Below the pieces are notes generated by a model. The model searched no databases, was not told the DNA's origin, and was given only the letters and a program-made list of their open reading frames with translations. The translations under genes and the position numbers were made by a program. A stretch of DNA of 45,055 bases from Salibacterium aidingense DSM 18341 (GTDB lineage: Bacteria > Bacillota > Bacilli > Bacillales > Marinococcaceae), in NCBI RefSeq assembly GCF_000429685.1, contig NZ_AUCI01000026.1:1-45055 (forward strand), written 5' to 3'. The first letter of the stretch is position 1; every line of letters starts with the position of its first letter. This document shows, piece by piece, positions 1,976 through 16,676 of this stretch.

Positions 1976-2294
1976 TGTATTAGACCATAAAATTGATTTT
2001 GCTGTCGTTGTAACGGTACACAAGGCTAATCCAAACGGGGATCCACTTAATGGAAACAGACCACGTCAAAACTATGACGGTCTTGGCGAAATATCTGATG
2101 TTGCTATCAAACGAAAGATCCGCAATAGGTTAATGGATATGGGGGAATGTGTATTTGTACAATCAGATGACCGAAAACTGGATGAATATGAAAGTCTGAA
2201 ATCAAGAGCAGAATCTAATGAAGAATTGAAGAAAATACTAAGTTCAAAAGAAAATAACGGAGATGATTTTGCAAGGATGTTTTCTTCTTTGTGA
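1968..2294 (+). pseudogene. cas7: cas7 (csd2), type I-C, 5' fragment
   Basis: Cas7 forms the RNA-binding backbone of the I-C complex and is normally about 280-290 residues. Here only the first 102 or so are left: DHKIDFAVVVTVHKANPNGD, PLNGNRPRQNYDGLGEISDV and AIKRKIRNRL are typical. After NGDDFARM the frame enters sequence that belongs, on the other strand, to cas3, and stops. The start is sound (AGAGGAGG upstream, overlapping the cas8c stop). The break point is shared with cas3, so one rearrangement cut both genes. Confidence 0.88.
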
Positions 2295-4108
2295 TCAATC
2301 ATGTGAACCTTTTTTTGATCTGACTTCCCATTTCTGTTACATCTTCCTGCCGCTTGCGCCATCGAATCTAAGCCTGCTAGAGATCGAATAACACTATCAA
2401 AATCTACATCAACACCCGCTTCAATCAACTGTGTACTCAAACAAACCACTTGTTCTTTATTACCAAGGTGCTCTCTTACTTGTGATAATATTTCATTCCG
2501 GTGGGCAGCACACATTGAGGTACTCAAATGATAAACAGGTATATCCAGTTGATCTTTCAGCAGTTGATATAGGTTGCGTACTACTGACTTGGTATTGAGT
2601 ATAACCAGCAGACTTCTTTCATCTTCCATAATTCTTTCTGCTAATCCAGCCAATTCTTCATTTCCTATAGCATTATTTGTCGCTTCATCTACCATTTCTA
2701 CTCTTTTAAACGCTCTTGTAACTTTATCAAGCCCCCTTACAATCTCTGAATCCTTCTCGATGTCTAATTGATTTTCAACATAATCAAGTGCCGGCTGAGT
2801 AGCAGTACAAAGCAGCATGCTGGAACGCCCATGATTTTTTAGAAAATTCAAGGAAAAATTAAATAACGAAACACAATGGGAGGGCACTTTTTGAACTTCA
2901 TCAAATATAATGACGGAATTAGCTAAATTATGAAGCCTTCTGGCGTTTGATGATCCTTTTGCGTAAAAAGCATTTAAGTATTGAACCATTGTTGTAAAGA
3001 CAATAGGAATATCCCAATTATCTTTAGCAAGCTTTAATTTTTGACGTGTGTTTATTTGTCCGTCTTCCGCTTCATCATCCTGCTCGTCATCTATTATGTT
3101 AGAATGATGCTCTAATACGTTAGCGTCATCCTTTAATATATTTCTTACTTCTTGGGCATTCTGCTCAATAATGGTAGTAAATGGAACAACATAGATAATC
3201 CGCTGCTTCCTGTGCACCATAGCATGTTTTAATGCATACCTTAGACCTGCGAGAGTTTTTCCTCCACCAGTGGGGATAGACAACGTGTAAATGCCTGATT
3301 CCTTTTCTGCAAATTGTTCACATTCCTCAGACATTTGTGCTCTTAAAATATTTATATTATTTCCAGCCTCGGGTTGTTGGCTAAACTCGTTAAGTTTCTC
3401 GTTCAACTTGGAGTAAAAGGAGCTCATTATCTCTCTATTATCTTTCAATGACTCGCCAATTAAATTCTCTTCAAATTCCCTGGTATTCGTTCTATCAGCA
3501 TCTACCAGTGCACTAAAAACATACTTATTTAAAAAGGTTGCAATTTCACCTAAGTTCGTGATTTCAGTTTGACTTATGATATCTTTCACTTCATTGGCAG
3601 CATTCTTGATGTATTGTGAAAATTTTTCTTCATCCATCACATTCTCAAAAAATGCACTCTTACTATCCTCGAATTCATTAAGTTCTTTTTCTGATACTCT
3701 TCTTAAGAAAGGAGATTCCACTTCCGGAGTCAAATAATCGTGTAGAAAAGAATGATGTGAGATAACAGCATTACTAACTATTTCTGCCACTAATCCCTCA
3801 TATTCATCATTAGGTCTACAATTATGTATTCTCTCAAATAACATCCTCCCGCCTGCCGATGAATGATCAACACTTCCCCGTTTTGGAGGATTCTCTGGGT
3901 GATTGATCGCTTCTCGTAAATAAATTTGAAATTCTTCAGTATATTTTCCAACATCGTGCAATAATCCCGCTAATCCACAAAGATGCTTTAACCCAACTTT
4001 TTCACCATAAACTTCTGCCAGTTTCTGAACTCCCAACAGATGTTCTTCAACTAACTGAAATTGTCCATCCGATTCTCGAACATGAGCTACATGATCTATT
4101 GATTTCAT
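2072..4108 (-). pseudogene. cas3: cas3 (type I-C HD nuclease-helicase), 3' truncated and fused to antisense cas7
   Basis: Cas3 is the helicase-nuclease recruited by the Cascade complex. This copy keeps the N-terminal HD domain (LLHDVGKY with H51 and D52; later SHHSFLHD), the helicase Walker A (PTGGGKT, near residue 280), the DEVQ box (near 405) and motif VI (QAAGRCNRNG, near 590). It loses homology at about residue 608 (MIDHKEENILAK), and the last 70 or so codons are cas7 read backwards. The C-terminal domain of the normal protein of about 800 residues is missing. The 600 intact codons have no internal stop, so the cut seems recent or the fragment is tolerated. Without cas5, a full cas8c or cas7 it has no Cascade partner here. 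Confidence 0.85.
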
Positions 4109-4336
4109 TATTAACTTCCCCTTATTTCATAACTAACTGTAAGTTAATATACAAGCTTGTCATAATTTATCAATTTATAGTATATATTCTATAAGATCAT
4201 ATTATTTCCCTTCTTTTTATAAAACTTTTTAACTAGTTCCATTTTTTAATATAATATTTATAGAACGAAAGAACCATTATAAAAAGTTAATTCTCTAAAA
4301 ATAAAGAGTCCGATTTTTATCGGACTCTGTTAGATA
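4109..4336. other. AT-rich intergenic stretch with a terminator
   Basis: I see no gene here. It holds the upstream region of cas3 (the start at 4108 follows AAATAAGGGGAAGTTAATA on the minus strand) and, at 4305-4328, the terminator of the LysM gene. Confidence 0.6.
4305..4328 (-). terminator. Rho-independent terminator after the LysM gene
   Basis: AGAGTCCGAT and ATCGGACTCT form a perfect 10-bp stem with a 4-base loop. Reading on the minus strand it is followed by TTATTTTTAGAG. It lies 9 bases past the LysM stop codon. Confidence 0.8.
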
Positions 4337-4831
4337 TTATGGAATAATCAACCCATACCCGGGATACAACACATCCGGGGAGAAGCTGCTTCGTCCCTGG
4401 TTCGCCTGGATGGTACGCTGAACCGGGGTCCCTGTCTGGCGGCTGATGCTGTTGAGAGAGTCTCTTGTATTGACAGCATAAATTCGGGACGGGATTTCAA
4501 GCAGTTCAAATTCCTCTATAGCATCGGGGTTATTCAACTGAGGATTGGCTTCGACCAGACGCTTCGTGGACACAGCGAAGCTTTGAGCGATCGATTGTAT
4601 CGTGTCTCCCGGCTGTACCACATAATAGACGTGGGCACGCGGGCTGTATGGATACGGAATGATAAGCCGGTCCTTCGGGTATATCATACCAGGGTCGGTA
4701 AACGGCGGATAGACAGCGTTCATTACGGAAACCGCCGGGACGTTGCTGCCAAACCGGTTGGCAATGCTGTAGAGCGTATCCTCGGGCTGGACACTGTAGA
4801 CAAAATATGTTCCCTGCTCCAGGATAGGCAT
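4337..4831 (-). CDS. Triple LysM-domain protein
   Basis: This 164-residue protein consists almost only of three LysM peptidoglycan/chitin-binding modules: YFVYSVQPEDTLYSIANRFG to LIIP (about residues 8-58), VYYVVQPGDTIQSIAQSF to LLEIP (about 68-114) and IYAVNTRDSLNSISRQTG to GLIIP (about 116-164). There is no catalytic domain and no obvious signal peptide, like the small LysM proteins of Bacillus spore coats. A longer open frame reaches 4957, but the ATG at 4831 follows AAAGGAGG at ideal spacing and is chosen. The region upstream of 4831 overlaps the terminator of the next gene, which also argues against the longer form. Function beyond wall or coat binding is inference. Confidence 0.85.
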   Translation of the reverse strand: MPILEQGTYFVYSVQPEDTLYSIANRFGSNVPAVSVMNAVYPPFTDPGMIYPKDRLIIPYPYSPRAHVYYVVQPGDTIQSIAQSFAVSTKRLVEANPQLNNPDAIEEFELLEIPSRIYAVNTRDSLNSISRQTGTPVQRTIQANQGRSSFSPDVLYPGYGLIIP

Positions 4832-4899
4832 GTCATTTCCTCCTTTGCTATAAATGCCTAGTTTCAGCATAGGCGGCAAAGGCTCGACCCGTGACAGAA

Positions 4900-4940
4900 A
4901 AAATAAAAAAACCTGCTGGAATTTCCTATCTTCCAGCAGG
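4900..4940 (-). terminator. Rho-independent terminator after the SIMPL gene
   Basis: CCTGCTGGAA (4912-4921) pairs perfectly with TTCCAGCAGG (4931-4940). On the minus strand the stem is followed by TTTTTTTATTTTTTC. It sits about 100 bases past the stop of the SIMPL-domain gene. Confidence 0.85.
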
Positions 4941-5040
4941 CTATTTCTCGAATTCAATTTTACCGGGCCTGGTCTACGTTATCCCGGCGATTGGGAGGAA
5001 AAACCTTTCCAGAACGGCTGAATCCACCGCTTCCAGCTCC

Positions 5041-5790
5041 TTAATTCAGCTGATAGACGACGTCGACTTCCTGTATCACTTCCACCTGGCCGGCTTCAAT
5101 AGAAGTTCCGTCATTGCCTGCACTGTCAGCTGCTTCTTCCTGCGCATACTCCCGGGACGGAAGATCCATCTGAGTGCCGCTTTCTGCTATCTGAAGGACA
5201 TCTCCGCTGGATTTACCGGCACTTTCCGCCATCGCTTCTGCCTTCGCTGCCGTGTTTTCGATTGCCTGCTGCAGCGCCTGTTGTTCTGCTTTAGACTCAT
5301 CCTCTAACGTAAACCGGGTCTGCTGAATTTGATTGGCGCCGGCTGCTGCGGCATCGTCGAGGAGTTCTCCCACCTTTTCCATATCACTGTATTCCACAGA
5401 AAGAATATGCCGCGCCCGGAACTGCTCTTCTCCTTCCTGACTATGATCCGTATGAACCCCGAAACTGGCCGTTTCAATATTTTCATCTGGAATATCGTAA
5501 GCGCTTAATTGTTCACGGACAGCGTTCATCCGTTCACTGACTTGGTTCTGTGCCGCATCCGCGGAAGTATCCGTAGCCTCCACTCCCAGGCGGAGCTGCG
5601 CCAGGTCCGGTTCCACACTTACATTTCCTGTCCCTTTCACAACCAATGTTCCTTCCTGCATGGTCGACTGCGCCTCCGCAAAATCTGCTTCTTCGACAGA
5701 AGTCCCCCCCAACACGGCAGAATAAAGAAAGCCTCCTGCCACCAGGGCTGCAGTCACTCCCAACGCCTGATACAATCGTTTTTTCACCAT
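5041..5790 (-). CDS. SIMPL (DUF541/YggE-type) domain protein, exported or membrane-anchored
   Basis: The 249-residue protein has a basic start and one hydrophobic segment (about residues 5-28), then a SIMPL domain: GTLVVKGTGNVSVEPDLAQL, DIPDENIETASFGV, and a conserved late stretch KAEAMAESAGKSSGDVLQIA. The segment may be a signal peptide or a membrane anchor. The mature part is strongly acidic, as in salt-adapted exported proteins. SIMPL proteins have no settled biochemical role; links to oxidative stress and to outer-surface function come from other bacteria. The start follows AAAAAAGGAGG at good spacing. It appears to be a single-gene unit with its own terminator. Confidence 0.82.
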   Translation of the reverse strand: MVKKRLYQALGVTAALVAGGFLYSAVLGGTSVEEADFAEAQSTMQEGTLVVKGTGNVSVEPDLAQLRLGVEATDTSADAAQNQVSERMNAVREQLSAYDIPDENIETASFGVHTDHSQEGEEQFRARHILSVEYSDMEKVGELLDDAAAAGANQIQQTRFTLEDESKAEQQALQQAIENTAAKAEAMAESAGKSSGDVLQIAESGTQMDLPSREYAQEEAADSAGNDGTSIEAGQVEVIQEVDVVYQLN

Positions 5791-5985
5791 GACATCATAC
5801 CTCCTTTTTTATTAAAACCTGATGGTTCTTCCTGGTGTCTTCCTCTACCTTCTACCCTTAAAGTCGAGATGATTGCAATAATGTTACAAAAATATCTTAA
5901 TTTTTCAAACATATTTAAAGACGCATCCTGAAAGAAGCGTCTTCTTGGGCTCATCCCCGAATGGCCTGGGCAAGGATAAGAAATA
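5791..5985. other. Intergenic region with a weak hairpin
   Basis: I see no gene. AAGACGC (5918-5924) and GCGTCTT (5937-5943) can form a 7-bp stem. It may be the original terminator of the YfcC-type permease whose body has been deleted (see 5986-6289). Confidence 0.4.
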
Positions 5986-6289
5986 TCAATTTCCAGAAAG
6001 AACCATAAATAGGCCGCCGATGATAAAAGTGAAAAAAACGACTTCTCCTGCATCTACCAGACCTTGAGGGACAGCCAGCATAAAATCAACCATTCCTGTG
6101 GGATCAGATTCGACTCTCAGGTAAGAATCTGGATCAATGGCTGTTCTACCATACGGACCAGACACTTTCTCAAACGTTCCAGCCGGCACGAAATACGTGG
6201 CAATAGCTGCTATCGCACTAAATATAAATAAAATGACATAAAGTATGAGAGATCTGGAACTTCTTTTGTCTATTATTTTCAGATGACAA
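5986..6289 (-). pseudogene. YfcC-family permease, 5' remnant with a frameshift
   Basis: On the minus strand, 26 bases past the hydroxyisourate hydrolase stop, a TTG (6289) preceded by AAGGAAGG opens MSSENNRQKKFQISHT. One extra T near 6241 shifts the frame. The rest, YVILFIFSAIAAIATYF, VPAGTFEKVSGPYGRTAIDP and GEVVFFTFIIGGLFMVL, matches the N-terminal part of YfcC-type basic amino acid/C4-type permeases (normally about 450-500 residues, many membrane segments). The frame then ends after about 95 residues, so most of the gene has been deleted. Its position as the last member of the urate operon suggests it once carried a pathway substrate or product; that is inference. Confidence 0.75.
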
Positions 6290-6315
6290 GCAAATACCTT
6301 CCTTTTTTACGTATT

Positions 6316-6669
6316 CTAACTGCCTCTATATACTTGGTAGCCCCACGGAGAAATAAGAAGAGGAATATGGTAGTGTTCGTGCGGTTCGGCAATTCCAAAG
6401 CGGACGGCTACTTTTCCAAGAAAAGGTGGTTCCGTGGTGCCAGCCTCTTTTTCTCCAAAATACGTCCCGATGTGAAAGAGCAGCTCGTATTCTCCGGTCT
6501 CGATGTTGGCTGACGAAATAAGCGGTTCTGCCACACGGCCATTCTCATTTGTTCTGGTTTCTGTGATTTTTTCAAGCTGCCCGCTGTTCATCTGGAAAAG
6601 TTCAATACGCACCCCGGGAGCCGGACAGCCGTGCGTCAAATCTAATATATGGGTCGTTAGGCCACTCAT
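6316..6669 (-). CDS. pucM: 5-hydroxyisourate hydrolase (transthyretin-related)
   Basis: It hydrolyses 5-hydroxyisourate, the product of uricase, to OHCU in the cytoplasm. The 117-residue length is normal. The family marks are present: TTHILD near the N terminus with the conserved His7, and the signature C-terminal tetrapeptide YRGS, preceded by HYHIPLLISPWGYQ. It follows the uricase gene by 15 bases with AGGAGG before the ATG, so the two are surely co-transcribed. It would be followed by the YfcC-type permease in an intact operon, but that gene is broken. Confidence 0.95.
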   Translation of the reverse strand: MSGLTTHILDLTHGCPAPGVRIELFQMNSGQLEKITETRTNENGRVAEPLISSANIETGEYELLFHIGTYFGEKEAGTTEPPFLGKVAVRFGIAEPHEHYHIPLLISPWGYQVYRGS

Positions 6670-6684
6670 CTTTATCGTGCCTCC

Positions 6685-7599
6685 TTACAAATCATCCCGT
6701 GTGACGGACAAACGTTGAAAGCCAAAGGGAAGACGCGGTTCCGTATATACTTTTCCTTCCCTTCCTTTAATTTCTTCCACGACGGTATCCCAGGTGCGGT
6801 TCTGGGATTCAAACGTTACTTCTGTGAGCTGGGGGAAACGTTCGAGCACACGCCGTCCAATGCTGTAGATAAGACTCTGAATTGAGGGGGAAGCCACTTC
6901 CTCAAAGACGGTACTCGCAATATCACGGACCTGTTCCGCCGCCACATATCGGGAGGGATTTTCTCCAAACGCATCTTCCAGGTTTTCATACTTCCAGCCC
7001 ATATTTAAATATACAAACAAAGGGCGGTTGCTGTCTTCGGGAAGCGTTGTGTATTCATCACGGATGAAGCCGACAAACGAGTTATTCTTCACTTTAACAA
7101 GTTGAACATCCCGGGCTTCACTGTACTGCCGGGAGATAGTAAGGCCCTCTTTCTCCCTTATCATTTCAATAAAGGCACAGGTTCGTTCATTTCTCGACCG
7201 GTTAAACACCAGCTCACTTGGATTTCCCCCGGACACTGCCGCGTCAAATGGCAGTTCTTCGGCTGTCATCTGGATCCATTCAATATGCGGGTAGTGCTCC
7301 AAAAAAGCCTTCGACACGTATTGAATGAAACCTTCTGCCGTTTTACCGGAAAATAACCCTAGATGCCGCTGAATAAAATTCTTCATGGAATCGGTCGCCA
7401 CCACCGCACTGTTATCTCCTTCCGTAAACGAAGGGAGGAAAGCCTCCCCGCCAAGCTCGACAGTGACGTGCAGTCCGAATACCGTATTATCTTTTCCTGC
7501 AAAGGTCGATTCCGGAATCTGCATCACCCCGGTCAGTGGTTCCATAAAGGTCCGGTAGGCAAAAACATTTCCTTTCCCATAAGACATCGTTCTACTCAT
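6685..7599 (-). CDS. pucL: Urate oxidase (uricase)
   Basis: Uricase oxidises urate with O2 to 5-hydroxyisourate and H2O2, without a cofactor. The 304-residue protein has YGKGNVFAYR (Lys9) and VVATDSMKNF (Thr69-Asp70), which fit the Lys/Thr catalytic pair of the family, and the late SIQSLIYSIGRRVLERFPQL region. In Bacillus subtilis PucL is a fusion of OHCU decarboxylase and uricase; here the decarboxylase is a separate gene 12 bases upstream, and this protein begins directly at the uricase domain. The H2O2 it makes could be handled by the catalase at 17462-18931, though nothing links the two genes in regulation. Confidence 0.95.
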   Translation of the reverse strand: MSRTMSYGKGNVFAYRTFMEPLTGVMQIPESTFAGKDNTVFGLHVTVELGGEAFLPSFTEGDNSAVVATDSMKNFIQRHLGLFSGKTAEGFIQYVSKAFLEHYPHIEWIQMTAEELPFDAAVSGGNPSELVFNRSRNERTCAFIEMIREKEGLTISRQYSEARDVQLVKVKNNSFVGFIRDEYTTLPEDSNRPLFVYLNMGWKYENLEDAFGENPSRYVAAEQVRDIASTVFEEVASPSIQSLIYSIGRRVLERFPQLTEVTFESQNRTWDTVVEEIKGREGKVYTEPRLPFGFQRLSVTRDDL

Positions 7600-7611
7600 A
7601 CTATCCGCTCC

Positions 7612-8109
7612 TTATTGGGTGATCGTATCTTCCAGCCGGAATTGGGCAATCTGATAGATTTCGTTCATGGCGGTCTGAAATTCTTCGTCGCGTTCGTTGC
7701 CAAGCCTTACCTGCAGGGATTCATACACGGCACGTTTTGTTTTTCCTTTGACCGCCAGAATAAACGGGAATCCAAACTTCTGGACATACGCTTCATTCAG
7801 CCTGACAAACTGCTCAAATTCCTCGTCAGAAAGCTGGTTTAAACCGGCCCCTTTTTGTTCTTTCGTAGAAGTGAAACTCATTTTATCTTTGGCTCCCAAT
7901 TGGGGATGCTGCCGGATCAGCTCAAGTTTAACCCCTGTCTCTGCTGTTTCCACGATGTCTACCATCGTCCGGTGCAAAGACGCTGTGGAATCAAAAGGGT
8001 GGTAGTCCCATGCATTTTCTGCAACCCACGGGGAATGTTCAAAAATACTTCCCAGCGTTTTGGTGAACGCTTCCTGGGTCATTTCATTTAATTCCTTTAT
8101 CGTTACCAT
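7612..8109 (-). CDS. uraD: OHCU decarboxylase
   Basis: It decarboxylates 2-oxo-4-hydroxy-4-carboxy-5-ureidoimidazoline to S-allantoin, the third step of urate breakdown. The 165-residue helical protein has the family motif RQHPQLGAK, with the catalytic-type His near residue 67, and FPFILAVKGKTK in the second half. The start follows GAGGGGG at 8 bases. It heads the leftward uraD-uricase-pucM run. A palindrome lies about 37 bases upstream (8146-8160) and probably takes part in control. Confidence 0.93.
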   Translation of the reverse strand: MVTIKELNEMTQEAFTKTLGSIFEHSPWVAENAWDYHPFDSTASLHRTMVDIVETAETGVKLELIRQHPQLGAKDKMSFTSTKEQKGAGLNQLSDEEFEQFVRLNEAYVQKFGFPFILAVKGKTKRAVYESLQVRLGNERDEEFQTAMNEIYQIAQFRLEDTITQ

Positions 8110-8145
8110 GTGCTGCCCCCTCTGCAGATCGTATGTTATTTTAGT

Positions 8146-8160
8146 TAACGTATAGCGTTA
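8146..8160. promoter_or_regulatory. Candidate operator in front of uraD
   Basis: TAACG-TATAG-CGTTA is a perfect 5-bp inverted repeat with a 5-base spacer; the flanks (GT and CC) extend it imperfectly. It lies in the only sizeable gap of the leftward urate run, between pucR and uraD. It does not match the Bacillus subtilis PucR box as I know it (WWWCNTTGGTTAA), so the cognate regulator is open. Confidence 0.4.
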
Positions 8161-8223
8161 CCTTAAGGAATATACTAGCGGGGATAAGAAAAACTTGTCA
8201 TTATTTAATTTATCCAAAACAAG

Positions 8224-8268
8224 CCTCTTTTCTTGGTTATCATAACCATTATGATAGTTGAAAAGAGG
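8224..8268 (-). terminator. Possible terminator or attenuator at the pucR 3' end
   Basis: CCTCTTTTC (8224-8232) pairs perfectly with GAAAAGAGG (8260-8268), enclosing a smaller palindrome GGTTAT-C-ATAACC (8235-8247). The right arm overlaps the last codons of pucR. Read on the minus strand it is followed by CTTGTTTTGG, a poor T tract, so it could be a partial terminator between pucR and uraD. Confidence 0.45.
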
Positions 8269-9871
8269 ACTGAATCCGCAGAGCCAGCCGCAGACGCAGC
8301 GTTGTATCCGGATCCTTCAAATTCTGGCCGAGCAGTTCTTCAATTTTTTCCAATCGATAAATGACCGTATTGCGGTGCACATACAGCCGTTTTGCTGTCT
8401 CGGAGATGTGACAGTGTGTTTCCAGGTAGATCGACAAAGTATGAAGCAGGCTCTGATCGCTGTAAGAAGCATCCGATAAAGCCTGCAGGGTATACGAGCA
8501 GAATTTTTGCAGATCGTCCGATGGTATAATACGAAAAAGCTCCGAAATATCTTTCGTCTGATAAGCCTGTATGAAAGACGTACTTCCTGATAAATAACCG
8601 GACTGCAGTGCATTCACTGCTTCCGTATAAGCTTCCTTCACTTCCAGAAACTGCCGGCTGATATTGCTGATGCCAAACGAGATCGTCCGCTGAAATTGAT
8701 TCCACACGCTCGCCTGCATGTCTTCCAGCGCTTCTTCAATCCCATCATACATATCCCCGGACACATCCTCGATTTCGAGTAAAATAAAGCACATGTTTCC
8801 TTTAATGAAAAAATGGACCGGGAACGGAAAAACCTCCAGTTCTCCTTCCAAAAATTCATAGACACGGTCCGCTTCCATCTGATGCCGGGCAAAACTGAGG
8901 CTTACTTCCTCCTCATCCAATTTGCCGGCCGCCCCGATATATTTTTGATTTTTCTGCAGGTCAAATTCCTTCGCCCGGTTAATGACCTCTTCATTGGACG
9001 AAAAACTTCCCTCTACCACATTTATAAAAAAATCATTCCTGGCCCGGCGGGCGTATTGCTTCAGTGCATTTTCCTTCATTAATTCAAACGCAATCACATT
9101 GGCCGCCTGTTCCACTGTTAAAATCACACCGCTGTTCGATATCGGAACATCGCCGACAACCACAAGGGTTCCGCATGTCACCTGATGCGTATAAATAGGA
9201 AAGACGGTGACAACCTGCGGGTTTTCTTCTCGGGTCAGGGTAAAACAAGTATACGAAGTTTTTGGCAGAAACAGCTTATAACTGCTTTTATGCAGGACCT
9301 CCATATCCTTGAGGATGTCTATATTAGGATGCGAGGAACATATCAGATTCGAATGCTGATCAAGCAGCAGACATTGGTATTCCACCATGGAAGCCACACG
9401 CTGCAGCAGAGTTTTCAGCCCTTTTCCACTCATGATGTGATGCGTGAACATGCGGTGAGCTTCCAGTGCATTTTTCAGTTCATTTGTCCTCATGTTTAAA
9501 ATCGAACGAAGAGTTTGATTGACAATAGTTCCGAGCCGGAGATCTGCCGGAAGTTCAATGAGGGGCAGAGACACTTTATCAGCGAGATCTATCGCTTCTT
9601 CAGGAATCCGGCTTAAAAAACGTTTTGTTTTGATTCCAAGGCCGGAACATCTCTGTTCCGCCATCCTTTCTATGACATTCAGAAGCAGAGACGTGTCATC
9701 CTTAAAATGATAAGCGGTTGTCACAAGCAATTCATCTTTCTTTAAAAAATCCACAATATCAGGGGCATCCATCATATTGATGTGCTGGACTTCCCGCTTT
9801 TTCCCATCCACTCCTGCAGCCAACACAGCATCCTCAAACACCTGCAATTGTAAAATATCCTCCAGGTTCAA
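8249..9871 (-). CDS. pucR: PucR-family purine catabolism regulator
   Basis: A 540-residue PucR/CdaR-type regulator. The N-terminal PucR domain runs from MNLEDILQLQVFEDAVLAAG through about residue 125 (HINMMDAPDIVDFLKKDELL, LPLIELPADLRLG). A variable middle follows, and the C terminus carries the HTH_30 DNA-binding region (THCHISETAKRLYVHRNTVI, YRLEKIEELLG, residues about 475-525). In B. subtilis PucR activates purine catabolic genes in response to allantoin-type metabolites; the same role is inferred from position between the two pathway arms. The start is TTG at 9871 with AAAGGAGGG six bases upstream. The divergent allC operon starts 151 bases away. Confidence 0.93.
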   Translation of the reverse strand: MNLEDILQLQVFEDAVLAAGVDGKKREVQHINMMDAPDIVDFLKKDELLVTTAYHFKDDTSLLLNVIERMAEQRCSGLGIKTKRFLSRIPEEAIDLADKVSLPLIELPADLRLGTIVNQTLRSILNMRTNELKNALEAHRMFTHHIMSGKGLKTLLQRVASMVEYQCLLLDQHSNLICSSHPNIDILKDMEVLHKSSYKLFLPKTSYTCFTLTREENPQVVTVFPIYTHQVTCGTLVVVGDVPISNSGVILTVEQAANVIAFELMKENALKQYARRARNDFFINVVEGSFSSNEEVINRAKEFDLQKNQKYIGAAGKLDEEEVSLSFARHQMEADRVYEFLEGELEVFPFPVHFFIKGNMCFILLEIEDVSGDMYDGIEEALEDMQASVWNQFQRTISFGISNISRQFLEVKEAYTEAVNALQSGYLSGSTSFIQAYQTKDISELFRIIPSDDLQKFCSYTLQALSDASYSDQSLLHTLSIYLETHCHISETAKRLYVHRNTVIYRLEKIEELLGQNLKDPDTTLRLRLALRIQSSFQLS

Positions 9872-10022
9872 GAGGATCCCTCCTTTTATTTAGTCAGAGT
9901 AAACAAAAACTATTAAAAAAAATGACATTTCTGCTAATGATTTAGTGTTATATTACCAGTAAAATCTAGAACACAAAGAGATATTGTGAAGAAAGTTTAC
10001 ATAAAACAGAAGGAGGACCCCC
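9872..10022. promoter_or_regulatory. Divergent pucR/allC intergenic control region
   Basis: This 151-base AT-rich region must hold the promoters of pucR (leftward) and of the allC operon (rightward). For the rightward side an ATGACA/TGTTAT pair with an 18-base spacer (about 9930-9960) is a possible but weak sigma-A promoter. CACAA and TTGTG form a short inverted repeat in the leader (about 9972-9988). I found no match to the known PucR box. Confidence 0.4.
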
Positions 10023-11270
10023 ATGAGCACGGATTCAAGCTTATCTTTTTTACCAGACAATCAGGTGCTGCCCCTGATTGACTGGTTGTTCACCTTCGGC
10101 CGCACCAAAGAGAAGGGGACCACCCGCTTGCTGTACTCGGACAGCTGGCTCAAGGCGCAGCATGCGATATATGATAAATTGAAAAGCAGCGGTCTCTCTC
10201 CCTTCTTCGATGACGTTGGCAATTTGTATGGAAGAGTAGAAGGAACGGAAGCGGACGACGCGGCTATTGTTACAGGCTCCCATATTGATTCCGTCGTTAA
10301 TGGAGGAAAATATGATGGAACCTATGGAATTACCGCAAGCCTGCTTGCCGTTCATCATCTTCTAAACGAGTACGGACCGCCTAAAAAGAGGATAGATGTG
10401 GTCTCTTTATGCGAAGAAGAAGGCAGCCGATTTCCCCTTACCTTTTGGGGGTCGGGCAATATCACCGGAAAATACACTGAAATAAACACAGATGAACTCC
10501 TGGATAAGGAAGGAATGTCTCTAACAGAGGCTATGCACCGGGCCGGCTTTGGAAAAGGGGTGTATCCTTCCCCGCAAAGAAACGATATCGAAAGTTTCAT
10601 CGAGCTTCACATTGAACAGGGACATGTGCTGGAGAAAAGCGGAAGCTCTCTCGGTATTGTGGAAAGTATTGTCGGACAGAGAAGGTACAATATTTACGTC
10701 AACGGAGAAAGCAATCATGCCGGGACCACGCCGATGAGTTTCCGCAGGGATGCCATGCATACGGCGTCAGGACTGATACAATGGCTGACCGCAAAAGCCA
10801 GAGAGATAGACCCCCACCTGGTTGCTACCGTTGGAAAAATAGAAGCAAGGCCAAACACCCCAAATGTTATTGCGGGAGAAGTCATGTTTTCCCTTGATAT
10901 CCGTCATCACCGGACGGAAGTGCTTGATGCATATTGTTCGCACATGTTTGAACATTTTCACGAAATCTCAGTTCGTACAGGGGTCTCTATTTCACCTTCG
11001 CAGTGGACAGATGCGGCCCCTGTTAATATGGATCCTTATATCACAAAAACAGCCTTCGACCTCAGCAGACATCATCATCTGCCGGCCCAATACATGATCA
11101 GCGGCGCCGGCCATGATGCCCAAATGTTCGGAACATATTGCGCTGCCTCTTTAATTTTTGTTCCCAGTCACAACGGCGTCAGTCATGCCCCGCAAGAATA
11201 CACCGACAAGAAGGATCTTGAAAACGGGATACACATGTTAACTGAATTACTTTATAAACTGGCCTACTAG
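10023..11270 (+). CDS. allC: Allantoate amidohydrolase
   Basis: The enzyme (PucF in B. subtilis) splits allantoate to S-ureidoglycine, ammonia and CO2. It is a 415-residue M20/M28-type binuclear metal amidohydrolase. Visible metal ligands are GSHIDSV (His87), GKYDGTYG (Asp98), CEEEGSRF (Glu132 or Glu133), ELHIEQG (His196) and a late SHNGVSHA. The small dimerisation lid carries GESNHAGTTPM. It is the first gene of the rightward run, with GAAGGAGG before ATG. The next gene, pucG, starts 14 bases after its stop and uses its product. N-carbamoyl amino acid hydrolases share the fold, but the context fixes allantoate. Confidence 0.92.
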   Translation: MSTDSSLSFLPDNQVLPLIDWLFTFGRTKEKGTTRLLYSDSWLKAQHAIYDKLKSSGLSPFFDDVGNLYGRVEGTEADDAAIVTGSHIDSVVNGGKYDGTYGITASLLAVHHLLNEYGPPKKRIDVVSLCEEEGSRFPLTFWGSGNITGKYTEINTDELLDKEGMSLTEAMHRAGFGKGVYPSPQRNDIESFIELHIEQGHVLEKSGSSLGIVESIVGQRRYNIYVNGESNHAGTTPMSFRRDAMHTASGLIQWLTAKAREIDPHLVATVGKIEARPNTPNVIAGEVMFSLDIRHHRTEVLDAYCSHMFEHFHEISVRTGVSISPSQWTDAAPVNMDPYITKTAFDLSRHHHLPAQYMISGAGHDAQMFGTYCAASLIFVPSHNGVSHAPQEYTDKKDLENGIHMLTELLYKLAY

Positions 11271-11284
11271 AAGGAGGAAACAGA

Positions 11285-12535
11285 ATGAATGCTGATCCGC
11301 CGCTTTTGGCGAAACGAACAATTATGACACCAGGTCCGGCCGAAGCAGATCCGCGGGTGCTGCGGGCCATAAGCGCCCCTATCCTCGGCCAGTTTGATCC
11401 TTCTTTTACAGCTATGATGAATGACGTCATGGCCTCCCTCCGCAAAATATTCCGAACTGCTAACCACTGGGCTTTTCCGATTGACGGCACCTCCCGCTCT
11501 GGCCTCGAAGCCGTGTTATGCAGCCTGACTCAACCAGGGGATAAAGTATTCCTTCCGATTTTCGGCCGGTTCGGGCAGCTGTTCATGGAAATAGCGGAAC
11601 GGTATGGGGCGGAAATTTTTACCCTGGAATGTGAATGGGGACATATTTTTGACCCACAGGATATCATCGAGGAAATGAAGAAAATCCGGCCGAAAATTGT
11701 GGCTGTCGTACACGGGGAAACGTCCACAGGCTGTATACAGCCCTTAAAGGATATTGGAAAGGCCTGCCGGGAAATGGACAGTTTATTTGTTGTAGACGCG
11801 GTGGCTACTATTGCCGGTACGGAAGTAAATGTGGATGACTGGTACATCGATGCTGCCATTGGAGGAACCCAAAAATGCCTTTCCGTTCCTTCAGGGATGG
11901 CACCTATTACCTATAATGAAAGAGTAGAAAAAGTGGTGATGGCACGAAAAAAGGTAGAACGGGGCATCGCGACCGCTGATGATCAGAAGACGGAAGGAAA
12001 CCAGCCTCCGATCATAAGCAACTACTTCGATTTAAGCCAGCTTCAGGACTACTGGAGCCCGCGCCGCCTAAACCATCACACCGAGGCGACTTCCATGCTT
12101 TATGCGCTTCATGAAGGATTAAAGGTGGTACTTGAAGAAGGATTAGAAGAAAGGTATTCCCGTCACCGCTTCCATGAACAGGCCCTCCTCACCGGTTTGA
12201 AGGCAATGGGACTTTCTTTATATGTCGAGCATGAAGCAAAGCTGCCGATGGTAACCTGTGTAAAAATCCCAGAGCACGTGGACGGAGAAGCCGTGCGCCG
12301 CCTGATGCTGCAACAGTTCGGCGTTGAGATCGCAAGCTCCTTCGGCCCGCTGCAGGGAAAAATCTGGCGTATTGGCACGATGGGCTACAGCTGCCGTAGA
12401 GAGAATGTCTTGTTCGTCCTGGCTGCCCTTGAAGCCAGTCTCTCTTATTACGGTGCAGCTATTTCATCTGGAAAAGCGGTACAGACAGCTCTGCAATTTT
12501 ACCAGAAGGAAGAGATGAGGAAAGAAGGGGTTTAG
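11285..12535 (+). CDS. pucG: S-ureidoglycine:glyoxylate aminotransferase
   Basis: PucG is a class V PLP aminotransferase that takes the amino group of ureidoglycine to glyoxylate, giving glycine and N-carbamoyl-2-oxoglycine (oxalurate). The 416-residue length is normal. The fold type I pattern is clear: MTPGPAEADPRVLRA, the cofactor stretch DGTSRSGLEA, VVDAVATIAG with Asp171, and the PLP lysine in GGTQKCLSVPSG (Lys197). It lies between allC, which supplies its substrate, and an HpxW-like gene. Serine/alanine:glyoxylate aminotransferases are close relatives, but the operon supports PucG. Confidence 0.93.
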   Translation: MNADPPLLAKRTIMTPGPAEADPRVLRAISAPILGQFDPSFTAMMNDVMASLRKIFRTANHWAFPIDGTSRSGLEAVLCSLTQPGDKVFLPIFGRFGQLFMEIAERYGAEIFTLECEWGHIFDPQDIIEEMKKIRPKIVAVVHGETSTGCIQPLKDIGKACREMDSLFVVDAVATIAGTEVNVDDWYIDAAIGGTQKCLSVPSGMAPITYNERVEKVVMARKKVERGIATADDQKTEGNQPPIISNYFDLSQLQDYWSPRRLNHHTEATSMLYALHEGLKVVLEEGLEERYSRHRFHEQALLTGLKAMGLSLYVEHEAKLPMVTCVKIPEHVDGEAVRRLMLQQFGVEIASSFGPLQGKIWRIGTMGYSCRRENVLFVLAALEASLSYYGAAISSGKAVQTALQFYQKEEMRKEGV

Positions 12536-12537
12536 TC

Positions 12538-14148
12538 ATGAAAGATCAATTGGAAACGTATCCTTATGCTTCAAAGCGAACGGCGCCTGCCGGTATGAAA
12601 GGCATGGTTACCACCTCTCAGCCACTCGCCTCTCAGGCCGGTCTCGATATGTTAAAAAAAGGAGGCAATGCGATCGATGCCGCCATCGCAACAGCAGCCT
12701 GTCTGACTGTGGTAGAGCCCTGCTCGAATGGAATCGGCGGGGATGCCTTCGCACTTGTATGGACAAAGCATTCTTTGTACGGTTTGAACGCCAGCGGCCC
12801 GGCGCCGAACAGCCTCTCAGCGGAAGAAGTAAAAAAGCAGGGGCACAAGAAAATGCCGGAACGCGGATTTCTGCCTGTGACCATCCCCGGCGCCCCAAGT
12901 GCATGGGTTTCGCTGTCCGAACGTTTTGGGCGTCTCCCTTTTCATGAACTGCTGGAACCGGCCATATCCTATGCCAGAGAAGGATTTCCACTTTCCCCGG
13001 TTACAGCCAGGAACTGGCGGAGAGCCATCCAGCATCTTCAATCCACCCTTTCCGGGGTAGAATACGAGTTTCTATTTGAAACGTTTGCGCCCAATGGCAC
13101 CATTCCTGCTGCCGGAGAAATGTGGAAATCCGAAGCTTTTGCCGACACGTTGGAACAGATCGCCTCCTCTAAAGGAGAAGCTTTTTACCAAGGAACGCTT
13201 GCGGAACAGATTGATGCTTTTTCACGAAAATACGGAGGCTTCCTCCGAAAAGAAGACCTCGCCCGTTATACGCCGGAGTGGGTGACCCCTGTATCTGTTC
13301 CTTATAAAGGATATGACATTTGGGAAATCCCGCCCAACGGCCAGGGGATGGTTGCCTTGATGGCTCTTAATCTATTAAAAACAACCACATTCTTCGAAAA
13401 AGAACAAACAGAGACCTATCACCAGCAGATTGAAGCAATGAAACTCGCCTTTGCGGACGGAGAGAAATATATCACGGATCCAAGGGACATGATCGTTAAA
13501 ACAGAGGAATTACTGTCGGAGACCTATGCGGCAAACCGCCGGGAGCACATCGGCCCGGAAGCCATGGTGCCGGAAGCCGGGGAACCGCAGCACAGCGGCA
13601 CCGTCTACCTCGCCGCCGCTGATGGCGAAGGCAATATGGTCTCCTTTATTCAAAGCAATTTCTACAATTTTGGCTCCGGCCTGCTTGTTCCGGAGACCGG
13701 GATCCTGCTCCAAAACCGCGGTAATAGTTTTTCTTTGGATACACAGCATACTAACTTCCTGCAGCCGAACAAAAAAACGTATCACACCATCATTCCAGGA
13801 TTTATTACAAAAGAAGACCAGCCAATTGGACCCCTTGGGGTGATGGGATTCTATATGCAGCCGCAGGGCCATGTGCAAGTGGGGATGAATATGATCGACT
13901 TCCATCTTAACCCCCAGTCTGCCCTTGATGCACCGCGCTGGCAGTGGATGGGCGGAAAAACGGTACGCCTGGAGCGCTCTGTGCCTTCCCATATTGTAGA
14001 AGGGCTGACACGAAAAGGACATGATATTGAAATCTCGGCTGATTCCAATGAAATGGGCAGAGGCCAGGTGATTTGGAGAGATCCAGACTCCCATGTGCTT
14101 TATGGTGGAACCGAACCACGTACCGACGGTTCTACAGCTGTCTGGTAA
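12538..14148 (+). CDS. Gamma-glutamyltransferase-family amidohydrolase, probable oxamate amidohydrolase (HpxW/YwrD-like)
   Basis: The 536-residue protein belongs to the Ntn-hydrolase gamma-glutamyltransferase family, which is made as a proenzyme and cut before a catalytic threonine. That residue is likely Thr355 in HSGTVYLAAAD; upstream marks are GGNAIDAAIATAACLTVVEP and NGIGGDAFALVW. There is no signal peptide, unlike the secreted glutathione-degrading GGTs, so it acts in the cytoplasm. In Klebsiella the related HpxW converts oxamate to oxalate and ammonia, and oxamate arises from oxalurate, the PucG product. Its start is 2 bases after the pucG stop. Its nearest B. subtilis relative is probably YwrD. 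Substrate is inferred from context; no oxamic transcarbamoylase is in the window. Confidence 0.75.
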   Translation: MKDQLETYPYASKRTAPAGMKGMVTTSQPLASQAGLDMLKKGGNAIDAAIATAACLTVVEPCSNGIGGDAFALVWTKHSLYGLNASGPAPNSLSAEEVKKQGHKKMPERGFLPVTIPGAPSAWVSLSERFGRLPFHELLEPAISYAREGFPLSPVTARNWRRAIQHLQSTLSGVEYEFLFETFAPNGTIPAAGEMWKSEAFADTLEQIASSKGEAFYQGTLAEQIDAFSRKYGGFLRKEDLARYTPEWVTPVSVPYKGYDIWEIPPNGQGMVALMALNLLKTTTFFEKEQTETYHQQIEAMKLAFADGEKYITDPRDMIVKTEELLSETYAANRREHIGPEAMVPEAGEPQHSGTVYLAAADGEGNMVSFIQSNFYNFGSGLLVPETGILLQNRGNSFSLDTQHTNFLQPNKKTYHTIIPGFITKEDQPIGPLGVMGFYMQPQGHVQVGMNMIDFHLNPQSALDAPRWQWMGGKTVRLERSVPSHIVEGLTRKGHDIEISADSNEMGRGQVIWRDPDSHVLYGGTEPRTDGSTAVW

Positions 14149-14215
14149 CAATGCTCCGTCGTCTTTGATGGAATCTATAAGACTTTCGATTTATTGCAGA
14201 AAGCATGGTGAAACA

Positions 14216-15541
14216 ATGAAGGAATATGATACTCTCATTAAAAACGGATACGTCGTACTGCCGGACCGTGTACAGAAATTAGATATCGGGATCCGGGATG
14301 GTTGTATTGCAGCGATCGGGGAAGGGCTGCATGGCCCAGCCTCCTTAGAATATAATGCAGAAAACCGTTATATTTTTCCAGGAGGCATTGATGTGCATGT
14401 TCACTTTAATGAACCAGGGCGGGAAGACTGGGAAGGATTCTCCACCGGCTCTGCCATGATGGCAGCCGGCGGAATGACCACATATTTTGACATGCCGCTG
14501 AACGGCATTCCCTCCACCGTCTCGCTTTCGGCACTTCACGAAAAAACACAAATTGCAGGACAGAAATCCATCGTTGATTTTGGTTTATGGGGAGGGCTGG
14601 TACCGGGTAATGAAGAAGAGCTGGCCGGGTTTGCAGACGGAGTTATAGGCTTTAAAGCCTTTATGTCACCTTCCGGGAACCCCCAATTTGAACGGGCGGA
14701 TGATCAAACACTGCTGCAGGGGATGAAGCAGATTGCAAAGCTCGGCAGCCTCCTCGCCCTCCATGCAGAAAGCGCCCCCATGATAAAACATATGCAGGCA
14801 GAACAGACAGGGACAGACGCTGACGCCTACGCCGGTTCGAGGCCGATAGAGGCAGAGACCGAAGCCGTGCAGCGGGCGATTAATTTTGCCAAACTCACCG
14901 GGTGCCCGCTTCATTTTGTCCATATCAGCAACGCGGAAACCATTGATACGATTGAAGAGGCAAAACAGGACGGAATGGATATTACAGTTGAGACATGTGC
15001 CCATTACCTGCTTTTCAACCACAGCTCGCTGCAGACCCAAGGCGCGGCAGCCAAATGTGCCCCGCCTCTCCGTCCAGAAAAAGAAAGGCAGCAGCTGGTG
15101 CAGTACTTATTGGACGGAAAGATCGATATAGTGTCTTCTGATCATTCTCCCTGTCCGCCGGAGCTGAAAGACACAACAAATATGTTTACGGCATGGGGCG
15201 GTATCAACGGAGGACAGTTTACTCTGATGGCTTTAATTGAAACAGCACTCCGCTATCAGATACCGCTTTCCAGGGTGGCAGCCTGGGTTTCCTCCAATCC
15301 GGCCGCACGTTTTCAGCTGGACAAAACAAAAGGGGAGGCCGCTGTCGGAAAAGCAGCTGACCTGGTCGTCGTAGATCTTGAGACGTCCCACACTATTACG
15401 GCTCAGGATCTTTATACGAAACATCAGCAGAGCTTATATATAGATCATACGTTCCCCTGTCGTATTATTCAAACATTTTATCAGGGAGAGGTAGTTTATC
15501 ATCATCAAACCGGTGTAACAAACCACCCGTCAAGCATCTGA
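14216..15541 (+). CDS. allB: Allantoinase
   Basis: It opens the hydantoin ring of allantoin to give allantoate (PucH in B. subtilis). The 441-residue cyclic amidohydrolase has the binuclear zinc site: GGIDVHVHFNEPG (His61, His63), the carboxylated lysine in GFKAFMSPSG (Lys147), ALHAES (His183), FVHISN (His236) and SSDHSPCP (Asp309). A longer open frame starts at 14093 inside the preceding gene; the ATG at 14216 is chosen because homology starts there (MKEYDTLIKNGYVVLPD) and GGTG lies upstream. The ribosome site is weak compared with its neighbours. The 67-base gap before it is the largest within the run. Confidence 0.94.
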   Translation: MKEYDTLIKNGYVVLPDRVQKLDIGIRDGCIAAIGEGLHGPASLEYNAENRYIFPGGIDVHVHFNEPGREDWEGFSTGSAMMAAGGMTTYFDMPLNGIPSTVSLSALHEKTQIAGQKSIVDFGLWGGLVPGNEEELAGFADGVIGFKAFMSPSGNPQFERADDQTLLQGMKQIAKLGSLLALHAESAPMIKHMQAEQTGTDADAYAGSRPIEAETEAVQRAINFAKLTGCPLHFVHISNAETIDTIEEAKQDGMDITVETCAHYLLFNHSSLQTQGAAAKCAPPLRPEKERQQLVQYLLDGKIDIVSSDHSPCPPELKDTTNMFTAWGGINGGQFTLMALIETALRYQIPLSRVAAWVSSNPAARFQLDKTKGEAAVGKAADLVVVDLETSHTITAQDLYTKHQQSLYIDHTFPCRIIQTFYQGEVVYHHQTGVTNHPSSI

Positions 15542-15563
15542 ATGAATGAGAAGAGGTGACACC

Positions 15564-16121
15564 ATGGATTGGACACTGCAGAAAAACTTATTTCTTGGTT
15601 TTTTCCGGGCTGGGATTTTCGGTTACGGCGGAGGCCCGGCTTCGATTCCACTGGTTCATAAAGAGGTCGTCGAAGGAAACGACTGGATGACTGATGAAGA
15701 ATTTTATGACATTCTCGCGATTGGCAATACGCTGCCCGGTCCTATCATGACAAAAATGGCCGGCTATATCGGGTACCGCGTCGGCGGGACTACCGGGCTG
15801 TTCAGTGCCTTGACCGCCTCTGTTCTTCCCACGGTCATTCTTATGATTCTCCTTATTGGGTTTCTATTAACATTTCGTTCCTCCCCTATTGTAGAAGGGA
15901 TGACTAATGCAATTGCTCCGGTGGTCGGCGTTATGATGCTGACCCTCACATATAACACGTTAAAAAGTACAAAAACACGCTCCACCTGGCCTTTTGTCAT
16001 TATACTTACGCTTGTCAGCATTGTGGTGCTGGAACTATTGAACATTCATCCTGCATTTCTTATAGCCAGTCTGCTTATTATTGGATGTATGTATTGGAAA
16101 AAGCCGGCCGGTGCCTCATAG
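15564..16121 (+). CDS. Half-size CHR (chromate-type) transporter, first of a pair
   Basis: This 185-residue membrane protein is one half of a split CHR-family (ChrA-like) transporter. It has the family marks FGYGGGPASIPL near residue 25 and NTLPGPIMTKMAGYIGY near residue 62, then four to five hydrophobic segments. Start: ATG at 15564 after AGAGGTG, rather than the in-frame ATG at 15546. Split CHR proteins act as pairs of opposite topology (such as YwrA and YwrB of B. subtilis). Here the pair closes a purine catabolic operon, so chromate is a doubtful natural substrate; an anion from the pathway (urate, allantoate, oxamate, oxalate) is a reasonable but unproven guess. Confidence 0.9.
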   Translation: MDWTLQKNLFLGFFRAGIFGYGGGPASIPLVHKEVVEGNDWMTDEEFYDILAIGNTLPGPIMTKMAGYIGYRVGGTTGLFSALTASVLPTVILMILLIGFLLTFRSSPIVEGMTNAIAPVVGVMMLTLTYNTLKSTKTRSTWPFVIILTLVSIVVLELLNIHPAFLIASLLIIGCMYWKKPAGAS

Positions 16122-16145
16122 ATTTCCATTATTGGAGGGTTCAGC

Positions 16146-16676
16146 ATGATATACTGGGAGATTTTTATGGCATTTTTCATACCGGGAATTGTCGGATACG
16201 GCGGAGGCCCGGCTTCGATTCCATTAATCGAGCATGAAGTGGTGGATCGGTACGGCATGGTGACCACAGAACAGTTCGGAGAGATTCTTGCGCTTGGCAA
16301 CACCCTTCCCGGCCCGATTGCCACAAAAATGGCCGGCTATATCGGCTATGAAGCGGCCGGGATCCCCGGAGCCGGGATCGCCCTTTTTGCGACGGTTGCC
16401 CCGTCCCTTTTGGCGATGGTTTTTCTTTTAGGGCTTTTATACAAATTCAAAGATTCTCCACGTGTCAAAAAAATGACGTTGTACATCCGCCCCGCCGTAG
16501 CAGTGCTTCTCGGCGCTCTGGCCTATCAGTTCTTCCAGAGCGGCGCCGCTAATGCAGGAGCTCTGCATACGGTAATTTTAGGCGTCGGCAGCTTTTTTCT
16601 ATTTGAACGAAGCAGGATCCACCCGGCTTTTGTCATTCTCCTCGCACTGCTGTACGGTATTATTTTTTTATCTTAA
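16146..16676 (+). CDS. Half-size CHR (chromate-type) transporter, second of a pair
   Basis: The 176-residue partner of the preceding gene, starting 24 bases after its stop with GGAGGG before ATG. It repeats the same marks, GYGGGPASIPLIEHEV and LALGNTLPGPIATKMAGYIG, and then four or five hydrophobic segments. The two proteins are clearly homologous along their length, so the pair arose by duplication, as in other short-chain CHR pairs. It is the last gene of the rightward run from allC. No strong terminator follows. Function as for its partner: anion transport, substrate unknown. Confidence 0.9.
   Translation: MIYWEIFMAFFIPGIVGYGGGPASIPLIEHEVVDRYGMVTTEQFGEILALGNTLPGPIATKMAGYIGYEAAGIPGAGIALFATVAPSLLAMVFLLGLLYKFKDSPRVKKMTLYIRPAVAVLLGALAYQFFQSGAANAGALHTVILGVGSFFLFERSRIHPAFVILLALLYGIIFLS

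Follow-up and report, generated by a model that had tools for sequence, protein, structure and literature searches.

The 45,055-nucleotide contig NZ_AUCI01000026.1 of Salibacterium aidingense DSM 18341 (assembly GCF_000429685.1, a 4.4-Mb draft in 55 contigs), referred to here as the window, holds a purine-degradation cluster that includes a YwrD-type hydrolase and a pair of half-size CHR transporters. The genes allC, pucG, the hydrolase gene, allB and the two CHR genes form a single run on the forward strand (10023-16676), with successive intergenic gaps of 14, 2, 67, 4 and 24 nt, and pucR is divergent from it. With pucG, allB, allC and pucR all present, the cluster belongs among the puc purine operons. 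The first gene, allC (10023-11270), encodes an allantoate deiminase with ureidoglycine as its product; it lies above the cut-off of the NCBIfam hydantase subfamily and scores 526 bits against its best-scoring model, 'allantoate deiminase', for which the cut-off is 532. It is followed by pucG (11285-12535), whose product, a ureidoglycine-glyoxylate aminotransferase that forms oxalurate, matches the PucG structure 3isl at 2.8e-190 and 3nnk at 1.2e-130. The third gene (12538-14148) encodes an N-terminal nucleophile (Ntn) amidohydrolase of 536 amino acids (PF01019, 511 bits), assigned to the YwrD clade by its tree and active-site signature. The allantoinase gene allB (14216-15541; TIGR03178 above cut-off, 532.6 bits) probably starts at the ATG at 14216, as judged from the sequence, and the run closes with the first (15546-16121; PF02417, 146.6 bits) and second (16146-16676; PF02417, 143.1 bits) CHR half-transporter genes. 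The first-pass annotation of the window had positioned the hydrolase, both CHR halves and the purine genes correctly.

The association of the hydrolase with the CHR pair extends far beyond this genome. Two samples, which share a single locus (L016 = L160), were examined: (a) 80 named loci that carry a relative of YwrD and (b) 40 YwrD loci, one per genus and 59-66% identical, chosen among the matches listed before their neighbours were known. In sample (a), where several contigs end early, at least 16 of the 80 loci have a CHR gene no more than 5 kb from YwrD, always on the same strand. In sample (b) the two lie this close in 24 of 40 genera, and 23 of these 24 loci have all their CHR genes on the strand of YwrD. 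A rough chance rate, on the assumption that 4 Mb contain two CHR units, is 0.006 per locus. Gene order varies between CHR-CHR-YwrD and YwrD-CHR-CHR.

The reverse test started from the first 40 genera with a short CHR gene among the best-scoring matches listed, with coordinates and loci read by hand. YwrD was present within 7.5 kb in 14 of 22 genera with window-type CHR versus 0 of 18 genera of the other clade, one of which sits on a 6.5-kb contig (P 2e-5). Two of the 14 (G106 and G150, with YwrD about 6.2 kb away) belong to a small group that is sister to the main CHR clade, and excluding the pair gives 12 of 20; in G012, YwrD is 7.9 kb from CHR and outside the limit. The loci fetched for this test omitted genera already known to have the two genes adjacent, and alone would understate the rate. 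The CHR tree contains 37 tips of the other short-CHR clade; for none of them does the stretch examined show YwrD at a distance of 5 kb or less. The expectation of the first-pass annotation that split CHR pairs co-occur with YwrD/HpxW homologues is thus borne out far above chance, and YwrD-CHR is a conserved module, also found in several purine clusters and more general than that annotation had known. Three further observations concern these genes. Tandem YwrD genes adjoin the CHR pair in two Lederbergia species (L029, L033). A YwrD-CHR-CHR run is followed by a pyroglutamyl peptidase gene and a gene for a DUF1028 protein in L239 (5659-9966), and a pyroglutamyl peptidase is also near YwrD in L017, L023 and L176. 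A second clade of Bacilli short CHR pairs (L195-L205, L207-L210, L214, L217, L218) has no YwrD in the examined stretches.

Linkage to purine catabolism was evaluated from the side of PucG, which was detected at E<=1e-120 in 70 of the 398 genomes of the class. Besides that of S. aidingense itself there are 69 pucG loci, of which the comparison covered 60; all nine that were omitted are from one family (f19). CHR pairs occur in four of the 60 (L095, L098, L120 and L121, from four families) against 0.41 expected (P 0.0009), in keeping with the co-occurrence of CHR and pucG that had been suggested from the window alone. The distance from CHR to pucG is about 5.7 kb in L098 and about 4.4 kb in L095; in L121, a 19.5-kb locus that has no YwrD, the pair stands between pucG and allB. 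Three further puc loci were reached via YwrD, two with CHR (L013, L061) and one without (L014), so that both partners are present in several puc clusters. The locus of Salibacterium qingdaonense (L013) has a gene order identical to that of the window, and its YwrD, 78% identical, is the nearest among the 80 named loci; Priestia aryabhattai B8W22 (L061) carries allC-pucG-ywrD-CHR-CHR. Because the order recurs in the former and this arrangement in the latter, the gene order of the window is more than chance. The CHR pairs linked to puc genes take four places in the CHR tree, namely the window with L013, L061, L098, and L095 with L120 and L121; support is good for the window/L013 pair, for L098 and for the trio, and weak for the placement of L061.

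The closest solved chain to the hydrolase is 2nlz (7.6e-222), and its AlphaFold model superimposes on that structure with a template modelling score of 0.96 at 60% sequence identity; the chain of HpxW, 5hft_A, is matched at 6.7e-38. No signal peptide was seen by eye at the N-terminus, and the nucleophile is predicted to be Thr355. The protein carries the active-site signature of HpxW: the Thr, VSFIQS, QNRG..FSLD, (F/Y)HT and QPQ. In a family alignment of 140 sequences, after removal of two repeats (one being a fragment of the window gene itself), the nucleophile Thr and the Arg of the QNRG motif are kept in 140 of 140; the H of the HT motif is found in 130 and the following T in 139, and the letters of QPQ are kept in 137, 139 and 139. 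Among the features of gamma-glutamyltransferases (GGTs), the hydrolase has the N-terminal nucleophile Thr and the Ntn fold and lacks DFRE, NNxxDDF and PLSS, which we take to be the glutamate-binding motifs of the E. coli enzyme; its TIGR00066 score of 352.3 bits is slightly below the cut-off of 357.85. Because HT aligns to the Ser-Ser of GGT and NASG to the DFRE of the E. coli enzyme, these motifs identify the hydrolase as not a typical gamma-glutamyl enzyme, with the HpxW signature instead.

Phylogeny refined the label 'HpxW/YwrD-type' that the hydrolase had been given. Its YwrD half stands: in the catalytic-subunit tree the protein falls in the large YwrD clade that contains 2nlz, and in the full-length tree the hydrolases of the window, L013, L014, L015 and L061 form one sub-clade (support 0.974), the L061 protein lying elsewhere within the large YwrD clade in the subunit tree. 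Orthology with HpxW is ruled out, since Klebsiella HpxW sits in another clade, grouping in the catalytic-subunit tree with a 36-38% clade of pucG loci (support 0.93). HpxW/YwrD-family genes occur in 15 of the 60 pucG loci, ten of these in family f19. Fourteen of the 15 group with Klebsiella HpxW or with members of its clade, L116 doing so in the full-length tree alone, and the L120 hydrolase is a third lineage, apart from the HpxW and window types. A post hoc comparison drew attention to position 438, which aligns to the second oxyanion glycine of GGT. It is Phe, Ala or Lys in the window, L013, L014, L015, L061 and L120, with Phe in the window, and non-Gly in 13 of 119 other distinct YwrDs; the contig of L015 stops just upstream, and its puc context is presumed. 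That the hydrolase takes part in oxalurate or oxamate processing, as first suggested from its position, gains support from the 15 of 60 pucG loci, from the active-site signature and from a remark in the available text of PMC5270733. We propose, from these sequence features, that it would be an oxamate (or oxalurate) hydrolase.

The two CHR proteins, as adjacent half-size PF02417 members, fall in the short-chain CHR superfamily. The second half has a 7-helix AlphaFold model (predicted local distance difference test score 88.5). A Foldseek search with this model gave no hit in the PDB at E<=0.001, so the fold of CHR proteins may still lack a solved structure; for the first half, a sequence search gave no convincing PDB match. 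The genome has six PF02417 matches: the window pair, a pair on contig C1, and two in a long protein on contig C34. The window pair could be a pump for chromate (or sulfate) efflux whose placement in the operon is incidental, and the occurrence of other window-type CHR pairs in unrelated contexts fits this explanation. It would leave unexplained the conserved same-strand linkage to YwrD (23/24) and the above-chance presence of CHR in puc clusters at several tree positions. No ChrS adjoins the window pair, and its halves score 172.1/168.1 and 193.6/168.0 bits against the NCBIfam ChrA/ChrB equivalogs, under the cut-off of 250; the latter is a weak argument, as these cut-offs are missed also by the C1 pair, which has a ChrS-like gene in its vicinity. 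Overall, an incidental chromate pump appears distinctly unlikely.

The fate of oxalurate was approached at the level of whole genomes. Among the 70 pucG genomes, the hydrolase family is present in 58, AllG in 21 and a PRK08310-type amidase in 25, three of the amidase matches being partial ones of about 185 residues; only two of the genomes have none of these genes. Amidase and AllG occur together in one genome (P 3e-4), and no more than 20 kb separate the amidase from pucG in 14 of the 25 amidase-bearing genomes, partial matches included. Members of the hydrolase family are found in 45 of the 49 pucG genomes that lack AllG and in 13 of the 21 that have it; the figure for genomes lacking pucG is 146 of 328. 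Within the 60 pucG loci, AllG occurs in eight, none of them with the hydrolase; the AllF/AllH- and kinase-like neighbours were named by eye. A direct cleavage of oxalurate to urea was probed through urease, which was found in 15 of 23 pucG genomes with the hydrolase only (that is, with neither AllG nor amidase) versus 10 of 22 with amidase (P 0.24). In the S. aidingense genome, AllG was not found, nor was a bicupin oxalate decarboxylase, oxalyl-CoA routes not having been searched for, and no urease exceeds the TIGR01792 cut-off; its PF00449 match, just above cut-off, falls in allB. The genome does have an amidase on contig C27, 50% identical to a puc-linked one and situated, as judged by eye, in an apparent sugar-acid locus. 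No account of the fate of PucG-made oxalurate in Bacilli without AllFGH was found in the literature searched. The HPX pathway includes an oxalurate amidohydrolase, HpxY (PMC12625717, from the portion available).

These data suggest a possible pathway for the gene run 10023-16676, which would be a nitrogen-scavenging operon for allantoin. By established family function, AllB and AllC convert allantoin to ureidoglycine, and PucG converts ureidoglycine to oxalurate and glycine. Oxalurate would then yield oxamate, perhaps through the distant C27 amidase, which is proposed because the AllFGH route is absent. The YwrD-clade hydrolase, by its shared signature and its context, may split oxamate into oxalate and ammonia, like Klebsiella HpxW. 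Oxalate would be a dead end here, and the CHR pair, acting as a heterodimer, may export it; as a small dianion, oxalate would resemble chromate and sulfate in charge and size. The distribution of AllG, amidase and hydrolase, the routes missing from the genome itself and the existence of HpxY make the chain of amidase, YwrD and export the simplest one. The first-pass annotation had proposed that the pair moves a pathway anion; among its candidates, oxalate is favoured, moving outward, because the pathway would yield a dead-end dianion and CHR adjoins the enzyme that would make it. We infer both substrates and the direction of transport, and the proposal that the hydrolase frees oxalate from oxamate (or oxalurate) for export by CHR is put forward tentatively, at rather less than even confidence.

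The opposite direction, with the CHR pair importing a pathway compound such as allantoate, urate or oxamate, was considered in the light of the transporter content of the cluster. No transporter gene was identified between 6316 and 16676 besides the CHR pair, in line with the earlier statement that the cluster holds no other intact transporter, and this speaks for import. The reading sits poorly with L120 and L095, in which CHR stands beside an NCS1-type permease and a Tau/Ssu-type ABC (ATP-binding cassette) transporter, respectively, and with the activity described for CHR in B. subtilis, which is efflux in the available text of PMC8940164. Import is accordingly judged very unlikely. The further claim of a dead YfcC-type transporter was left unconfirmed: the likely remnant, a 67-residue frame at 5986-6189, has no Pfam match (E<=1e-5) and no NCBIfam match (E<=0.1).

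Returning to oxalate export, its strongest competitor emerges from the wider neighbourhoods of YwrD. The hydrolase and the CHR pair could form a general module for other amides, for example malonyl-, gamma-glutamyl- or sulfonate-bearing ones imported by Opp/Dpp-type or TctABC transporters, in which the hydrolase frees an anion and CHR expels it, and which came to be included in a small number of puc operons that require the cleavage of a similar amide. A census was made of 118 YwrD-family loci, the 80 and the 40 minus the repeats L016 and L181 (L181 = L239, dropped although it has CHR, pyroglutamyl peptidase and DUF1028). It was based on the longest open frames, which gives counts slightly below those of tblastn. 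CHR was found in 36 of these loci, ABC ATPases (the representative being Opp/Dpp-type) in 33, SBP_bac_5 in 18, PucG and pyroglutamyl peptidase in three each and TctA in two.

The genome itself has two YwrD-type genes, that of the window and one on contig C1, 57% identical, together with a distant GGT-like gene (28%) around which no CHR gene was seen in 11 kb. The C1 locus is ordered TctCBA, YwrD, D-amino-acid transaminase, CHR pair, and nearby are a ChrS/Lrp-like regulator, a CuyA-type D-cysteate sulfo-lyase (above cut-off) and a SulP-like carrier (below cut-off). This combination also fits a general module. Such a module would not predict three HpxW/YwrD-family lineages in puc clusters, nor CHR beside pucG without YwrD in L121; we regard it as a serious possibility, though a doubtful one. 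Separately, the genes at about 4264-14951 of the C1 locus (L010, C1:425000-441000) suggest a possible pathway that handles an acylated D-amino acid or cysteate; sulfite or sulfate would be a further candidate cargo of CHR.

Several observations weigh against the export of oxalate by the window pair. PucG is beside YwrD in only 3 of the 80 named loci and 0 of the 40 genera; of the 40 YwrD loci that have a CHR gene at up to 5 kb, both samples combined, 38 show no pucG in the stretch; neither YwrD nor puc genes accompany many of the window-type CHR pairs; and the ABC ATPase and SBP_bac_5 counts of the census point in the same direction. The Niallia locus (L014) has a puc-ywrD run that lacks CHR. 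The transaminase and sulfo-lyase of the C1 locus do not suggest oxalate. Kinship inflates the counts, since a single family supplies 31 of the 70 pucG genomes and 10 of the 15 pucG loci that bear the hydrolase. Taken by itself, the locus-level exclusion of AllFGH (8/60) and hydrolase (15/60) does not reach significance (P 0.18). Convergence of the YwrDs of puc clusters on HpxW-type residues was considered and rejected, as 0 of 8 differing positions match. There is no amidase in the window's cluster. Finally, deletion of ywrBA in B. subtilis causes chromate sensitivity, according to the available text of PMC8940164.

The pathway-anion claim therefore stands in part: the YwrD linkage and the above-chance presence in puc clusters speak for it, and the 38 of 40 loci without pucG and the chromate tolerance of B. 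subtilis speak against it. Because most YwrD-CHR loci lack pucG, and in view of the B. subtilis phenotype, the CHR pair may handle whatever product YwrD releases, which would be oxalate in puc operons alone. A broader and unlikely extension of oxalate export is that the whole YwrBA clade of CHR exports small organic dianions, oxalate first, made by paired YwrD/HpxW-type hydrolases; chromate resistance would be a side activity, and some hydrolases of puc operons would convert oxalurate to oxalate and urea.

The genes divergent from the run complete the purine cluster. All four are on the reverse strand: the pucR-type regulator (8249-9871; PF07905 and PF13556), 2-oxo-4-hydroxy-4-carboxy-5-ureidoimidazoline (OHCU) decarboxylase (7612-8109; TIGR03164 above cut-off), uricase (6685-7599; TIGR03383 above cut-off) and 5-hydroxyisourate (HIU) hydrolase (6316-6669; TIGR02962 above cut-off). 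The pucR-allC intergenic region contains two TnrA/GlnR-like boxes, one of them at 9985-10001 on the forward strand, each with 2 mismatches to the sequence taken as the consensus. Boxes with up to 2 mismatches occur in 10 of 13 puc intergenic regions, against a total of 0.34 sites predicted from shuffled sequence of the window, although other genomes may have a higher A+T content. The PucR box gave 2 one-mismatch matches in the window, none in the operon and not above chance, and promoter and terminator scans gave counts similar to those of shuffled sequences. In the available part of PMC4475385, ywrD is listed as TnrA-activated, yet no TnrA site was found at its promoter by chromatin immunoprecipitation. 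Elsewhere in the window, a gene for a Cas3-type helicase-nuclease lies at 2072-4108.

A conserved hydrolase-transporter pair bears on the role of YwrD, on the substrate of CHR and on the fate of oxalurate in Bacilli without AllFGH, and if oxalate were the cargo, a transporter family named after chromate would need a new name. In the titles and the starts of abstracts of the open-licence literature, no report of a purine or oxalate role for CHR was found. A role for YwrD as an oxamate hydrolase has already been suggested, from its resemblance to HpxW and its co-evolution with purine catabolism genes (PMC5270733, as far as its text was available); YwrD has no assigned role in the available part of a 2021 review (PMC8062742).

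Among known systems, the AllFGH oxamic transcarbamylase with carbamate kinase is an alternative fate of oxalurate, and AllG was not found in this genome. The chromate efflux pair YwrBA (Chr3N/Chr3C) of B. subtilis is likewise a pair of half-size CHR proteins above the Pfam cut-off; the window pair differs in scoring below the ChrA/ChrB cut-off, in having no adjoining ChrS and in its location inside a purine operon. The oxamate amidohydrolase HpxW of Klebsiella (5hft) shares with the window hydrolase its active-site motifs and its purine-cluster context, as described in the available text of PMC5270733. It differs in belonging to another clade, and the window hydrolase shows no convergent residues. 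The nearest relative is 2nlz of B. halodurans, annotated as a 'cephalosporin acylase', which is in the same clade as the window hydrolase; B. subtilis YwrD, whose sequence was outside the tree, is presumably a member of this clade as well. Compared with YwrD and 2nlz, the window gene is distinguished by its place within a puc operon, where pucG and allB flank it, and by Phe at position 438, where Gly is usual.

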